Part shown: one piece after another, positions 8,361 through 19,679 of the stretch
Numbering within the stretch: the first letter of the stretch is position 1
Layout of the letters: each line of letters begins with the position of its first letter
Assembly (NCBI GenBank): GCA_945897865.1
Contig: CAMDHJ010000021.1
Location: 1 to 33,056, forward strand
Length of the DNA stretch: 33,056 nt
Source: Tepidiphilus sp. J10
Lineage (GTDB): Bacteria; Pseudomonadota; Gammaproteobacteria; Burkholderiales; Thiobacillaceae
Direction: 5' to 3'
The notes under the pieces: model-generated
Databases searched by the model: none
Told to the model about the DNA's origin: nothing
The model's input: the letters and a program-made list of their open reading frames with translations, nothing else
Program-made: the position numbers and the translations under genes

Positions 8361-8783
8361 TCAACCATCGTTCCAGGGATTGACAAGCGCCAAGCCAGGG
8401 ATGGCCTTGAAGTCATCGGTATTTCGCGTTGCCAGCGGCATGTTGTGCGCCAGAGCGATAGCAGCGATTTGGGCGTCTTGCGTGCTAATTGGACGGCCGA
8501 TATGGCGCCGCTCGGCGACGATGAGGGCGAAGTGCTCAGCTGCCAGCGAGTCGAATGGCAAGCAGCGCGCCGCGAAATCTTCTTCGAACATCTGTCGGGC
8601 AGCAACGGCCAGTACATCGCGTCGTTTTCCATCCGGCAACAGCGCAATGCCGAGGCTGATTTCGGCCTGGGTGATTGCGCTCACCTGCGCCCCGCTCGAC
8701 TGAGCATTGACCCAGGCAACCACTGCAGGATTGGGCTGAGGGCGCATCAATTCAGATAGCACGTTGGTATCGAGCAAAATCAT
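8361..8783 (-). CDS. vapC: PIN-domain toxin, VapC/FitB type
   Basis: A 140-residue PIN ribonuclease. Acidic active-site residues are in place: Asp5 (MILLDTNVLSE), Glu41 (QAEISLGI), Asp103 (STQDAQIAA) and Asp123/124 (NTDDF). VapC toxins cleave tRNA or rRNA with Mg2+, and the target here is unknown. The gene overlaps the upstream antitoxin by 4 bases (ATGA), giving the usual antitoxin-first coupled order. It lies between a palindromic MITE and an Rnf operon, i.e. a small acquired insert in a conserved region. Confidence 0.92.
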   Translation of the reverse strand: MILLDTNVLSELMRPQPNPAVVAWVNAQSSGAQVSAITQAEISLGIALLPDGKRRDVLAVAARQMFEEDFAARCLPFDSLAAEHFALIVAERRHIGRPISTQDAQIAAIALAHNMPLATRNTDDFKAIPGLALVNPWNDG

Positions 8784-15114: not shown

Positions 15115-15747
15115 ATGAACGCTCAGCGCCGCCGCGAAATCTTTCAACGCCTGCAGGCCGCGAATCCGCACCCGACCACCGAACTGGTACACCAGTCCGC
15201 GTTTGAACTGCTGATTGCCGTGATGCTGTCGGCGCAAGCCACCGACAAGAGCGTCAATATCGCCACCGCCACGCTGTTCCCGGTGGCCAATACGCCGGAA
15301 AGCATGCTGACCCTGGGCGAGGACAAGCTGAAGCAGCACATCCGCAGCATCGGCTTGTATCCGACCAAGGCAAAAAACGTCATCGCCACCTGCCAGATCC
15401 TGCTCGACAAGCACGCTGGTGAGGTGCCGCGTAACCGCGAATCGCTGGAAGCCCTGCCCGGTGTCGGCCGCAAGACCGCCAACGTGATCCTCAACACCGC
15501 GTTTGGCGAACCGACCATCGCCGTCGATACGCATATTTTCCGCGTCGCCAACCGCACCGGGCTGGCGCCGGGCAAGACCGTGCAGGAAGTCGAAGCCAAA
15601 CTGCTGCGCCATGTGCCGGCCGAATTCAAGCTGGACGCGCATCACTGGCTGATTCTGCTCGGCCGCTATGTCTGCAAGGCGCGCAAACCGGAATGCGCTG
15701 ATTGCGGCATCCGCGACCTGTGCGATTTCAGGGATAAAACCGCATGA
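15115..15747 (+). CDS. nth: Endonuclease III (DNA glycosylase/AP lyase)
   Basis: A 210-residue base-excision repair enzyme that removes oxidised pyrimidines. The helix-hairpin-helix LPGVGRKTAN gives catalytic Lys120, and VDTHIFRV gives Asp138. The [4Fe-4S] cluster ligands are Cys187, 194, 197 and 203 (C-x6-C-x2-C-x5-C), at the same numbers as in E. coli Nth. The gene ends the rsx operon, 17 bases after rsxE, and overlaps the FIST gene by 4 bases (ATGA). Confidence 0.96.
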   Translation: MNAQRRREIFQRLQAANPHPTTELVHQSAFELLIAVMLSAQATDKSVNIATATLFPVANTPESMLTLGEDKLKQHIRSIGLYPTKAKNVIATCQILLDKHAGEVPRNRESLEALPGVGRKTANVILNTAFGEPTIAVDTHIFRVANRTGLAPGKTVQEVEAKLLRHVPAEFKLDAHHWLILLGRYVCKARKPECADCGIRDLCDFRDKTA

Positions 15748-16826
15748 AAGCCGCCTCGGGCCTGGTCCAAGGCCGCCACGCCGATGCCGAACTGGTGGCA
15801 CAAGCCGTGCGCATGGCGATGCAAAAAGCCGAACTCGAGATCGCGCAATCGGTGGTGTTGTATTTGAGCAGTGATTTTGCGCATGACCCACAAGCCGCGA
15901 TCGCCGCCGCCGCGCGCGCCGGCCAGTGCACCCAGGTTGTCGGTTGCACTGCGGCCGGCGTGTTCAACGAAACTGACTGGGTGCTGGATGCTCCTGCCGC
16001 CGCCGCGCTGGTGCTGGGAGATGGCGTCAACCTGCAACCAATCCAGGCAGGCGTGGCGCCGGTGCTGACATATTGCGCCCCCAACGCGCTCGACTTCACT
16101 TGGCTGCAGTCCGGTCCGGCCCGTTTTGGCGGCGTCTCCGGCGATGCCACCGGCCAGGGACCGTTTTCGGTCTGGCAAAGTGGGCGCGTGCAAACCGACG
16201 GCCGCTGCGGCCTTTCGGTCCAAGGCGCGCAATTGCAGGTCGATTTTTCCCAAGGCGTTCATCCGCTGACTCAGCCTGCCCGCCTCGACAAGGTGGCTGG
16301 CCATGATGTGCAGATCATCGGCGGCATCAAGGCGCTGACCAGCCTGGCACATGAACTGCCGCTCAGCGTGCGGGCGCCGGAGCGTATCCCGACGCATCTG
16401 CTGATGGCTGGCGTTCCTTATGGCGATCCGGAAAATGCCATCAAGGAAGGCCGTTTCCATCTGCTGCCGGTGATCGCGGTGAACAGCGACGATCAATCGG
16501 TCACCATCGCCAACCAGTTGGAACCCGGCACGCCTTTATTCTGGGCACTGCGCAAGCCGAAAGCGGCGGCGGATGACATGGCGGCGATGCTGACCCGGAT
16601 GACCGCGAACAAAACGGAAAAGCCCCAGTTCGGGCTGATGTTTCCTTGCATGGGACGCGGCCCGATGTTCTACGGTGGCGAAGATCGCGATCAGAAAATC
16701 CTCGCCGAACGCTATCCCGGCCTGCCGTTCATCGGCTTCTACGGCAATGGCGAAATCGCCCAATTCGACGGTGCCAACCGGTTGCTGCAATACAGCACCG
16801 TGCTGGCGCTGGGCTACACCAACTGA
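15744..16826 (+). CDS. FIST N/C-domain sensory protein
   Basis: A 360-residue protein with a FIST N domain (~30-220: SVVLYLSSDFAHDP, QVVGCTAAGVF) and a FIST C domain (~225-350: PLSVRAPERIPTHLLMAGVPYG, FPCMGRGPMFYGGEDRD). FIST domains are proposed to bind small ligands such as amino acids and usually sit in signal-transduction proteins. Here the module stands alone with no kinase or cyclase domain, as in many betaproteobacteria. No signal peptide. Its ATGA overlap with nth implies co-expression with a repair enzyme, a link whose meaning is unknown. Confidence 0.9.
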   Translation: MKAASGLVQGRHADAELVAQAVRMAMQKAELEIAQSVVLYLSSDFAHDPQAAIAAAARAGQCTQVVGCTAAGVFNETDWVLDAPAAAALVLGDGVNLQPIQAGVAPVLTYCAPNALDFTWLQSGPARFGGVSGDATGQGPFSVWQSGRVQTDGRCGLSVQGAQLQVDFSQGVHPLTQPARLDKVAGHDVQIIGGIKALTSLAHELPLSVRAPERIPTHLLMAGVPYGDPENAIKEGRFHLLPVIAVNSDDQSVTIANQLEPGTPLFWALRKPKAAADDMAAMLTRMTANKTEKPQFGLMFPCMGRGPMFYGGEDRDQKILAERYPGLPFIGFYGNGEIAQFDGANRLLQYSTVLALGYTN

Positions 16827-16842
16827 AAACCAACAAGCCACC

Positions 16843-17274
16843 ATGTTCAATCCCAGCCGCGACCAGGTGCGAGACTTCTTCTTTAGTGCCTGGCATAAAT
16901 TTAATAGCAGACAGACGCTGACCGATCTTGAGAAAATTGCCGTCGAACACATCACTCGGCATCCTGAATACCACGCCATCCTGGCGCAACCCGAGCGTTT
17001 CCAGCAGCAGGAATGGCGGCCCGAAGCGGGCGAAACGAATCCTTTTCTGCACCTTTCCATGCACCTGTCGATCAGCGAACAACTTTCCATCGACCAGCCC
17101 GCCGGCGTCAAAATGCGCTATCTCGCGCTCGCCGAGCGGCTGGGCGACGAACACGCCGCGCAGCATGAAGTCATGGATTGCCTGGCGGAAATGATCTGGC
17201 AGGCGCAACGCAACAACCAGCCGCCGGACGCGCTGGCCTACCTTGAATGTCTGGACAAGAAATGTCTTTGCTGA
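16843..17274 (+). CDS. DUF1841 family protein
   Basis: A 143-residue soluble protein of DUF1841, seen mainly in Beta- and Gammaproteobacteria. Recognisable parts are MFNPSRDQVRDFFFSAWHKF at the start, AVEHITRHPEYH, and NPFLHLSMHLSISEQLSIDQP with conserved His residues. Function is unknown. ATG 16843 gives the family N-terminus; the longer open frame upstream lies within the FIST gene. Its end overlaps the SulP gene by about 13 bases, so the two are likely co-translated. Confidence 0.88.
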   Translation: MFNPSRDQVRDFFFSAWHKFNSRQTLTDLEKIAVEHITRHPEYHAILAQPERFQQQEWRPEAGETNPFLHLSMHLSISEQLSIDQPAGVKMRYLALAERLGDEHAAQHEVMDCLAEMIWQAQRNNQPPDALAYLECLDKKCLC

Positions 17275-19679
17275 AAAACCTGAAACTCGAGCGCTTCGAC
17301 AACTTCCTCGCCTGCAACATCTGGCTATACCAGTTTCTGCCCTTCTTGAAATGGCAGCACCGAGTTAATCGCGACAGCCTCAAGGCCGACGGCATCGCCG
17401 GCTTCACTGGCGCCTTGATCGTGCTGCCGCAGGCGGTCGCCTTCGCCACCATCGCCGGCCTGCCGCCGGAATACGGCCTGTATGCCGCCATGGTGCCGAC
17501 CATCATCGCCGCGCTGTTCGGTTCCAGCTGGCATCTGGTTTCCGGCCCCACCACCGCGATTTCCATCGTCGTCTTTGCCTCCGTATCGCCCTATGCCGAG
17601 CCAGGTTCGCCCGAATTCATCGGCATGGTGCTCACCCTCACCTTCCTTACCGGCCTGTTCCAGTTACTGATGGGCCTGGCCAAGATGGGCGCGTTGGTCA
17701 ATTTCATCTCGCATACCGTGGTGATCGGCTTCACCGCCGGCGCGGCCTTGCTGATCGCCGCCAGCCAGGTAAAGAACTTCTTCGGCCTTGACATCGAACG
17801 CGGCGCGCCGGCCTATGAAGTGGTGCGCCAACTGCTGATCCAGATCGGCGACATCAACCCGTATATCGTCACCGTCGCCGTGGTTTCCCTGATCTCCGGC
17901 CTGCTGGCGCGCAAATACCTGAAACAGGTGCCCTACATGATCGTCGCCATGGTGATCGGCGGCATCGTCGCGGCCATGCTGGATCGCACCTTCGGCAATG
18001 CGGTCACCCAGATCAAGACGGTCGGCGCCCTGTCCGCCAGCCTGCCGCCGCTGTCGATGCCGGATTTCTCGCTCGCCACCTTGAAAGTCACCTTCTTCTC
18101 GGCATTGGCGGTGACCGTGCTGGCGCTGACCGAAGCGGTATCCATCTCACGTTCGATCTCGATCAAATCCGAGCAGCACATCAACGGCAATCAGGAATTC
18201 ATCGGCCAGGGTTTATCGAATCTGTTCGGTAGTTTCTTTTCCAGCTACGCCTCCAGCGGCTCGTTCAACCGCAGCGGCGTCAACTACGAATCTGGCGCCC
18301 GCACACCACTGGCGGCGGTGTTTTCGTCACTGATCCTGCTTATCGTGTTGTTCCTGGTCGCGCCGCTGGCCGCCCACCTGCCGATTCCGTCAATGGCCGC
18401 CGTGCTGTTCCTGGTCGCCTGGAACCTGATCGACTTCCACCACATTAGCGCCATCCTCAAAGCGCACCGCGAGGAAGCCGTAGTGCTGGGGGTCAGCTTC
18501 TTCGGCACCGTGATCGATCTCGAAAAGGGCATCTTCATCGGCATCGTCACTTCGCTGATCTTCTATCTGTCGCGCACCTCCAAGCCAGCTATCCGCTCGC
18601 TGGTGCCTGATGCGCGCGATGTCGACAACCCGCGCCGAAAATTCATCGTTGAAACCGGCGCCGAACCGGATTGCCCACAACTCAAACTTCTGCGCCTGGA
18701 AGGCTCGATCTTCTTCGGCGCGATCGAACACATTCAGCAAACCTTTGTCGCCGTCGATGAACATGTGCCAAGCCAGAAGAACCTGCTGCTGTTCTCCAAA
18801 GGCATCAACAACATCGATCTGGCTGGCGCCGAAATGCTGGCGCATGAAGCCGTGCGCCGACGCAAGCTGGGGGGCGCGCTGTATCTCTGCGGTGTCCGGG
18901 AAGCTACCTGCAGCATGCTGAAAAAGGGCGGCTACGAAGCCGACATCGGCCCAGAAAACGTATTCAGTCACAAGCCAGATTCGATCGCCGGCATCTACCC
19001 GAGGCTCGATAGCGAAACCTGCCGTAACTGCAAATCACGCATCTTCCGCGAATGCCGGGAACAACTGCCCAATGGCGAGGCCCGTCCAGCGGAAAAAGCC
19101 CTACCGCTGCCGGATGTGCCCAACCTTGGTTACCAGCGCTTGACCGCAATCGTTCCCCGCAGCGGCGACGACGGCAATACTGGTCTCGCCGACGGCAGCC
19201 AGTTGCCGAAACACGCGCCGCGCATCGAAGCGATCGGTGCGGTCGAAGAACTGAACAGCCAGATCGGCGTCCTGATCGACACCGCCATGCCCGAGGAAAA
19301 CCGGGTTGTATTGCGAGAAATCCAGCACGACCTGTTCAATCTGGGCGCTGAACTGGCCTGGCCGGAGGTTTCGCAAATTGAAGAAGAACACGTCCTCAAT
19401 CTGGACCAAACCTTGGCTCGACTCAACGCCGGCCTACCGCCGCTGACCGAATTCGTCCTCCCCGGCGGCACCCCCGCCGCCGCCCAGGCCCATGTCTGCC
19501 GCACCATCTGCCGACGCGCCGAACGCCGCCTGACCCAGCTGGCGGAGAAGGAATTGTTGTCGCCCAGACTCGGCCAATATCTCAATCGCCTGTCCGATCT
19601 GCTGTTTGTGCTGTCGCGCCGGATCAACCGCAACGCCGGGCAACATGAACCGGTCTGGCGCGGGCCGACGTCACGCTGA
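17262..19679 (+). CDS. SulP anion transporter-STAS fused to PduO-type cobalamin adenosyltransferase
   Basis: A single ~805-residue frame with three parts (numbers from ATG 17262). Residues ~35-440 are a SulP transporter: VLPQAVAFATIAGLPPEYGL, GPTTAIS, and EAVSISRSISIKSEQHINGN. Residues ~470-585 are a STAS domain. A tail with CRNCKSRIFREC follows. Residues ~625-795 match a complete ATP:cob(I)alamin adenosyltransferase of the PduO/MMAB type: RSGDDGNTGLADGS (ATP loop), GAVEELNSQIG, CRRAERRL (catalytic Arg/Glu) and YLNRLSDLLFVLSR. SulP proteins move sulfate, bicarbonate or dicarboxylates; PduO enzymes make adenosylcobalamin. ATG 17262 is preferred for its GGACAAGA leader, but ATG 17247 is possible. 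No stop or frameshift separates the parts. Confidence 0.9.
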   Translation: MSLLKNLKLERFDNFLACNIWLYQFLPFLKWQHRVNRDSLKADGIAGFTGALIVLPQAVAFATIAGLPPEYGLYAAMVPTIIAALFGSSWHLVSGPTTAISIVVFASVSPYAEPGSPEFIGMVLTLTFLTGLFQLLMGLAKMGALVNFISHTVVIGFTAGAALLIAASQVKNFFGLDIERGAPAYEVVRQLLIQIGDINPYIVTVAVVSLISGLLARKYLKQVPYMIVAMVIGGIVAAMLDRTFGNAVTQIKTVGALSASLPPLSMPDFSLATLKVTFFSALAVTVLALTEAVSISRSISIKSEQHINGNQEFIGQGLSNLFGSFFSSYASSGSFNRSGVNYESGARTPLAAVFSSLILLIVLFLVAPLAAHLPIPSMAAVLFLVAWNLIDFHHISAILKAHREEAVVLGVSFFGTVIDLEKGIFIGIVTSLIFYLSRTSKPAIRSLVPDARDVDNPRRKFIVETGAEPDCPQLKLLRLEGSIFFGAIEHIQQTFVAVDEHVPSQKNLLLFSKGINNIDLAGAEMLAHEAVRRRKLGGALYLCGVREATCSMLKKGGYEADIGPENVFSHKPDSIAGIYPRLDSETCRNCKSRIFRECREQLPNGEARPAEKALPLPDVPNLGYQRLTAIVPRSGDDGNTGLADGSQLPKHAPRIEAIGAVEELNSQIGVLIDTAMPEENRVVLREIQHDLFNLGAELAWPEVSQIEEEHVLNLDQTLARLNAGLPPLTEFVLPGGTPAAAQAHVCRTICRRAERRLTQLAEKELLSPRLGQYLNRLSDLLFVLSRRINRNAGQHEPVWRGPTSR

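Follow-up and report, generated by a model that had tools for sequence, protein, structure and literature searches.

One open frame joins a SulP–STAS transporter to a PduO domain

The window analysed here is a stretch of 33,056 nucleotides from Tepidiphilus sp. J10 (assembly GCA_945897865.1, contig CAMDHJ010000021.1, positions 1 to 33,056 of the forward strand). It carries a gene in which a SulP/SLC26-type anion transporter with its STAS domain runs, in a single reading frame, into a PduO-type ATP:corrinoid adenosyltransferase (ATR) domain. The parts of this fusion gene, in window coordinates, are:

17262..19679, plus strand: whole fusion gene, 805 amino acids plus stop; its start falls inside the 3' end of the DUF1841 gene
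17247..19679, plus strand: frame from the alternative start, ATG 17247, 810 amino acids, open throughout
17379..18488, plus strand: SulP transport domain, residues 40–409 (Pfam Sulfate_transp, PF00916)
18684..18968, plus strand: STAS domain, residues 475–569 (Pfam PF01740)
19014..19085, plus strand: conserved SulP C-terminal tail with C587, C590 and C598; its LPNGEAR ends at residue 608
19086..19136, plus strand: variable linker from the SulP tail to the PduO core, residues 609–625
19137..19676, plus strand: PduO-type ATR domain, residues 626–805

In the 805-residue form, Sulfate_transp scored 292.7 bits against a cut-off of 23.2 (4.5e-87) and STAS 29.2 bits against 22.6 (8.2e-07). The ATR half matched Cob_adeno_trans (PF01923) over residues 630–787 with 180.4 bits (cut-off 24; 4.2e-53), as well as the NCBIfam model TIGR00636, PduO_Nterm (177.3 bits, cut-off 108.45). 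An earlier reading of the same letters, here called the original prediction, had described one frame with SulP, STAS and a full PduO domain, and these Pfam and NCBIfam scores, together with the stop-free frame, bear it out. The ATP loop (SGDDGNTGL) and the CRRAER segment that it named are both present. The CxxC...C tail that it placed between the two halves is also present but was not made by the fusion, because all eight aligned SulP relatives without a fused PduO end in CRxCxxRxFxECxxxLPxG. These unfused relatives terminate within a few residues of the tail end; in the fused copies, the tail is followed by the variable linker and then by the PduO core. The tail was considered as a new metal site created by the fusion and rejected, being the ordinary C-terminus of these SulP proteins.

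The fusion is shared by related genomes, with purifying selection on both halves

Occurrence was surveyed in 117 genomes of the family, many of them metagenome bins, including the genome of the window (G000). A PF01923 domain was found in 37 of the 117, and SulP, STAS and PduO stand in one frame in 11 (G000, G320, G410, G411, G412, G414, G415, G416, G418, G425 and G495). A twelfth copy, in G413, is interrupted by a contig end with the SulP tail still attached; this locus (L155) was used in the PduO comparisons only. The 11 fused copies contain no internal stop, the ten others are 77–95% identical to that of the window, and within the family the fusion turned up in just two genera. Purifying selection acts on both halves, with dN/dS of 0.02–0.25 in the SulP half and 0.10–0.34 in the PduO half (ten pairs). 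The frame runs uninterrupted from the STAS into the PduO part, as had been predicted. Since the same stop-free frame recurs in 11 of 117 genomes and dN/dS stays below 0.35 on both sides, the fusion is no sequencing accident.

A peptide-pattern search of the genome collection gave 60 loci, ten of them fusions from genomes already in the family set (L063–L071 and L084, not counted a second time). Among plasmids, 1085 records matched, none covering 80% of the fusion. A class-wide search with residues 561–805 matched 215 of 369 genomes, and among the matches listed only the window's own covers the query from its first residue. Twelve of the class-wide loci were fetched, namely all nine others listed that start before query residue 40 plus three more, and none had a SulP match within the stretches examined. 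G775 (L179:1371-4559) has a 1063-residue open frame that ends in a PduO domain and otherwise contains no Pfam domain, perhaps merely a long open frame.

The ATR half keeps its catalytic residues

In human MMAB, Arg186, Arg190, Glu193 and Arg194 are described as holding adenosylcobalamin (AdoCbl) and ATP, with Ser217 supporting (PMC9262797). A by-eye comparison matched all five by their spacing in the PduO half of the window, and the other fused copies likewise keep the catalytic Arg/Glu set. The closest solved structure is 2zhy/2zhz of B. thailandensis (3.4e-54 to 2zhy over residues 4–178). Across 37 unfused PduO sequences, 54 columns are conserved to at least 97%, and the window departs at five of them. 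Two of these departures, E52 and R116, are usual among fused copies. The remaining three, T10P, R25Q and D40E in 2zhy numbering (P632, Q647 and E662), are absent from the other 11 fused PduO copies, ten of which have the usual residue at columns 10, 25 and 40; the eleventh, G414, has T10A, together with N100T, S156A and D157E. Of the family's hallmarks at the N-terminal side, an ATP loop and a VDELN motif, the window thus shows the SGDDGNTGL loop alongside these three replacements. With three unusual residues in its PduO half and a CobA elsewhere in the genome, the window's fused ATR may be weakened or partly relaxed, and we are unsure of full activity there.

In four of the 11 copies (L139, L140, L146 and L152, from G320, G415, G410 and G411), the stretch from 45 codons upstream to seven downstream of the PduO core's first codon contains no ATG, GTG or TTG, so in these genomes the PduO domain is probably produced solely within the fused protein. 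The window's linker has no Shine–Dalgarno-like motif ahead of its GTG or of the TTG just behind. Separate translation of PduO as a general rule was rejected, as no internal start is conserved. The one copy with an ATG and an upstream GGAGG at the head of PduO, L151 (G495), possibly retains a relic start absent from the other ten.

CobA, PduO and possible clients of adenosylcobalamin

Most genomes of the family have either a CobA-type or a PduO-type ATR, and the two types largely substitute for one another in a complementary distribution: 29 of the 117 genomes have PduO only, 72 CobA only, eight both and eight neither. Relatedness inflates any test of this complementarity, and the CobA entries for G411, G201, G422, G469 and G488 rest on fragments alone. 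The 23 genomes of the window's genus divide into five with both, seven with PduO only, 11 with CobA only and none with neither; the seven comprise five fused copies, one cut fusion and one separate gene.

G410 (100% complete) and G415 (99%) carry the fusion, and no CobA, second PduO or internal start was found in either; both have a class II ribonucleotide reductase (RNR) above the model cut-off. Because the fused domain is the sole ATR found in these two genomes, beside a class II RNR, it most likely still makes AdoCbl. On the simplest reading it is the cell's ATR in both, and both seem to depend on it. The proposal of a role in AdoCbl supply is thus supported, since in several relatives no ATR other than the fused domain was found. 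The client that had been proposed, methylmalonyl-CoA mutase, fared differently: it occurs in two of the 117 genomes, not in G000 and among fused genomes only in G410, and is not supported as the partner. AdoCbl nevertheless probably has a client, since the class II RNR model matches all 28 genomes chosen for this search (26 above cut-off; in G000 and G412 only as pieces below it). CobS was found in seven of 19 chosen genomes, including G415 and G418, both without CobA. No cobalamin riboswitch reached the Rfam gathering score in the window or in seven related loci.

The transporter half and its possible substrate

Among PDB entries, the SulP half matched SLC26 structures, Prestin best (7v73, 5.2e-68), and also 6ki1, named there a low affinity sulfate transporter (1.7e-39). 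Its score for the sulfate permease model TIGR00815, 353.3 bits, lies below the cut-off of 380.45, and we therefore do not file it as a sulfate permease. It also falls below the NCBIfam equivalogs for BicA (186.6 against 880) and for the C4-dicarboxylate transporter DauA (237.5 against 614). RuBisCO is present in 18 of 19 chosen genomes, and a SulP protein of another sulfur bacterium has been predicted to import bicarbonate (PMC6458275); on these two grounds bicarbonate is a fair guess for the substrate, no more. Of the anions originally suggested, bicarbonate thus stands as a reasonable guess, while propionate and dicarboxylate found no support. G000 has a second SulP of the same kind on another contig, 53% identical. 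A second type of SulP protein (L142:6333-8468 and L165:8826-10961), of about 712 residues with its Sulfate_transp match split in two, adjoins the first in several loci.

The fusion most likely arose from neighbouring genes

The fusion gene lies downstream of rnf genes, nth and a FIST-domain gene, with a DUF1841 gene directly before it:

15115..15747, plus strand: nth-like endonuclease III gene, frequent neighbour
15744..16826, plus strand: FIST-domain gene (Pfam match), frequent neighbour
16675..17274, plus strand: DUF1841 gene (PF08897, 1.1e-58), directly upstream, conserved neighbour; its true start is possibly further in

Near the rnf cluster, a PIN-domain gene on the minus strand (8364-8783) is possibly half of a toxin–antitoxin pair.

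Related loci indicate that the fusion most likely arose from neighbouring SulP and PduO genes. Across the order, 45 unfused genomes were compared. In 23 of them, from nine families, no more than 10 kb separates SulP from PduO, and in all 23 the two genes share a strand with SulP upstream. In the other 22, they are further apart on one contig (six) or on different contigs (16). Random placement would put about 0.25 genomes within 10 kb, against the 23 observed. The 45 are unfused genomes with both positions among the matches listed (SulP matched in 92 genomes; two with the fusion were excluded), and members of the same family cannot count as independent cases. Where a genome had two SulP matches, one was entered; for G028 and G236 this was the one nearer PduO, so the chance figure is somewhat low. 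Other genes of the block, namely nth, DUF1841 and paired small genes clustering with a cytochrome c, often stay along, and inherited gene order therefore explains some or all of the proximity. We accordingly rejected the proximity as proof of a functional link, the rnf, nth, FIST and DUF1841 genes being frequent companions as well.

In another genus of the family, all four SulP–PduO junctions listed (L123, L124, L126 and L129) have the stop/start overlap TGATG. In a further genus, the PduO frame crosses the SulP stop at both junctions (L125 and L128), a GTG there being the likely start; L127 and L130 fall outside this junction set. In G291 (L138:9109-10291), of the window's genus, no SulP of the clade was found and PduO, by its predicted start, begins inside the 3' end of a DUF1841-type gene; whichever gene precedes it, PduO thus tends to adjoin it. 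In G231 (L131:5310-8492), a hybrid sensor kinase of 1061 residues stands between SulP and PduO.

Phylogenies place the fused PduO halves in one clade (support 99/98), beside the family's unfused PduO genes that lie behind DUF1841 or FIST. The fused SulP halves also group together (support only 81/57), and their sister group is formed by three SulP genes of the same genus (G088, G201 and G417). Compared with L150 (G412), nucleotide identity is 93–98% through most of SulP and 66–94% from residue 561 (window 18942-19676); the window's PduO pairs with that of G414 in the tree, its SulP with that of G412. This drop in identity, together with the tree conflict, suggests recombination within the gene.

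Weighing the explanations

From sequence comparison, the gene probably encodes a bifunctional membrane protein, in which a SulP/SLC26-type anion transporter with its STAS domain is joined at its C-terminus to a working PduO-type ATR; we hold this with some confidence, well short of certainty. The join would have been made once, through loss of the SulP stop, in the line of the window's genus and one neighbouring genus. Held on a linker of 16–24 residues behind the SulP tail, the ATR half would transfer the adenosyl group from ATP to cob(I)alamin. It would supply AdoCbl to class II RNR, and to mutases where present, as what may be the only ATR in several relatives. The transporter would move its anion, perhaps bicarbonate, largely independently of the ATR. 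The join itself may mainly couple the two expression levels and place the ATR at the membrane.

A number of findings weigh against this interpretation. The three replacements at P632, Q647 and E662 are found in no other fused copy. The closest unfused SulP genes occur in three same-genus genomes (G088, G201 and G417) where a search for PduO found nothing; the transporter can thus exist apart from the ATR. PduO ATRs are described as trimers (PMC9262797) and SLC26 proteins as dimers (PMC6497670), and this unshared symmetry could hamper assembly. G000 does not need the fused ATR, since it has CobA, one copy of which was found when a second cobA or pduO was looked for (no second PduO was); this CobA adjoins an FecCD permease and a TonB receptor, apparently for B12 uptake. 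The class II RNR of G000 itself consists of pieces below cut-off on separate contigs. A further RNR match, weaker and in a different long frame, turned up in most of the 28 genomes; other RNRs may therefore exist beside the class II enzyme. Finally, the absence of CobA elsewhere is uncertain because so many of the genomes are metagenome bins.

The confidences attached to the alternatives overlap one another and that of the bifunctional protein and do not sum to one. A neutral fusion, in which two unrelated housekeeping genes, adjacent through ancient gene order, lost the stop between them and the halves work alone in a functionless join, is compatible with a working ATR and has slightly less than an even chance. 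Genes of the rnf–nth–FIST–DUF1841 block at many loci mean that proximity can be inherited order. The two genes do not lie within 10 kb in 22 of the 45 order genomes, PduO abuts DUF1841 in G291 where no SulP of the clade was found, and within the family only two genera were found to have the fusion. However, the fusion persists across 11 genomes whose copies fall to as little as 77% identity. Four of the copies lack a usual start codon near the PduO start, and SulP and PduO also overlap in two other genera.

For the window's organism only, the ATR half may instead be decaying, a passenger losing activity since CobA took over; we regard this as a tentative possibility, which overlaps with the bifunctional reading. 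T10P, R25Q and D40E appear in no other fused copy, and CobA is present in both G000 and G414, the latter with its four changes of its own (T10A, N100T, S156A and D157E). Yet the Arg/Arg/Glu/Arg/Ser set is intact in the window, and dN/dS of the PduO half between the window and its nearest relative is still low (0.116). G320 and G425 also have CobA and show only changes common among fused copies, bar G19S in G425, which recurs in G415, a genome without CobA.

It is unlikely that the ATR domain was recruited as a regulator, with its ATP/cobalamin occupancy or its trimerisation gating SulP through STAS, much as a Usp add-on in this SulP clade might. The add-on does sit behind the STAS domain and tail, and the one relative tested, L162, has a Usp domain in the same place; nine families also show the neighbourhood, the two genes being no more than 10 kb apart in 23 of the 45 genomes, all 23 with SulP first on a shared strand. 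A sensor would need neither the catalytic Arg/Glu set, which is retained in the window and in the other fused copies, nor to stand in for CobA, as PduO does in several genomes, and three close SulP orthologues manage without PduO. Broader and likewise doubtful is the proposal that much of the order has SulP and PduO as a working unit, with a membrane-held ATR, fused or co-translated, whose ATP/cobalamin state would set import of the anion, perhaps bicarbonate. An assembly or sequencing artefact, to which the fragmented window assembly (247 contigs, 86% complete) might point, is already refuted for the whole architecture by the identical frame in ten further genomes, with purifying selection on either side of the join.

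A new architecture of two known families

Both halves of the protein belong to known families. As in BicA, DauA, Prestin and SLC26Dg, Sulfate_transp is followed by STAS in the usual order of SulP/SLC26 transporters, whereas the window protein has an extra tail and ATR and lies below the TIGR00815, DauA and BicA cut-offs. The ATR is like PduO/MMAB-type enzymes in its full domain and catalytic Arg/Glu/Ser set, and differs in its three unusual residues and in its position at the C-terminal end of a membrane transporter. The PduO of Salmonella is reported to have a different partner, a C-terminal heme-binding domain (PMC4923194). SulP fused or adjacent to carbonic anhydrase, with predicted bicarbonate uptake, has been described in A. 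ferrooxidans and other bacteria (PMC6458275). That system likewise sets an enzyme on or beside an anion transporter, whereas the partner in the window is a corrinoid enzyme that does not act on the supposed anion. The SulP–Usp protein of L162 (7046-9631, 862 residues) belongs to the same SulP clade and has a PduO gene close by, with Usp instead of PduO at the C-terminus. A SulP–ATR fusion was unfamiliar to the original prediction, and searches of an open-access paper library for SulP or other transporters with cobalamin or corrinoid adenosyltransferase or PduO turned up none; domain databases may still hold it. The protein combines two known families in a new architecture.

Were the working-unit proposal true, cofactor supply for DNA precursor synthesis would be coordinated with carbon uptake, and three SLC26 dimers and two ATR trimers might be linked into a hexamer or a membrane array. 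To have an anion transporter and a B12-activating enzyme permanently joined would connect membrane transport with cofactor metabolism in a new way, and the fusion would give a simple handle on the recurring SulP–PduO gene neighbourhood. Even if the join is neutral, the relatives show a series of stages, beginning with genes close together, then overlapping genes, and ending in a single protein.

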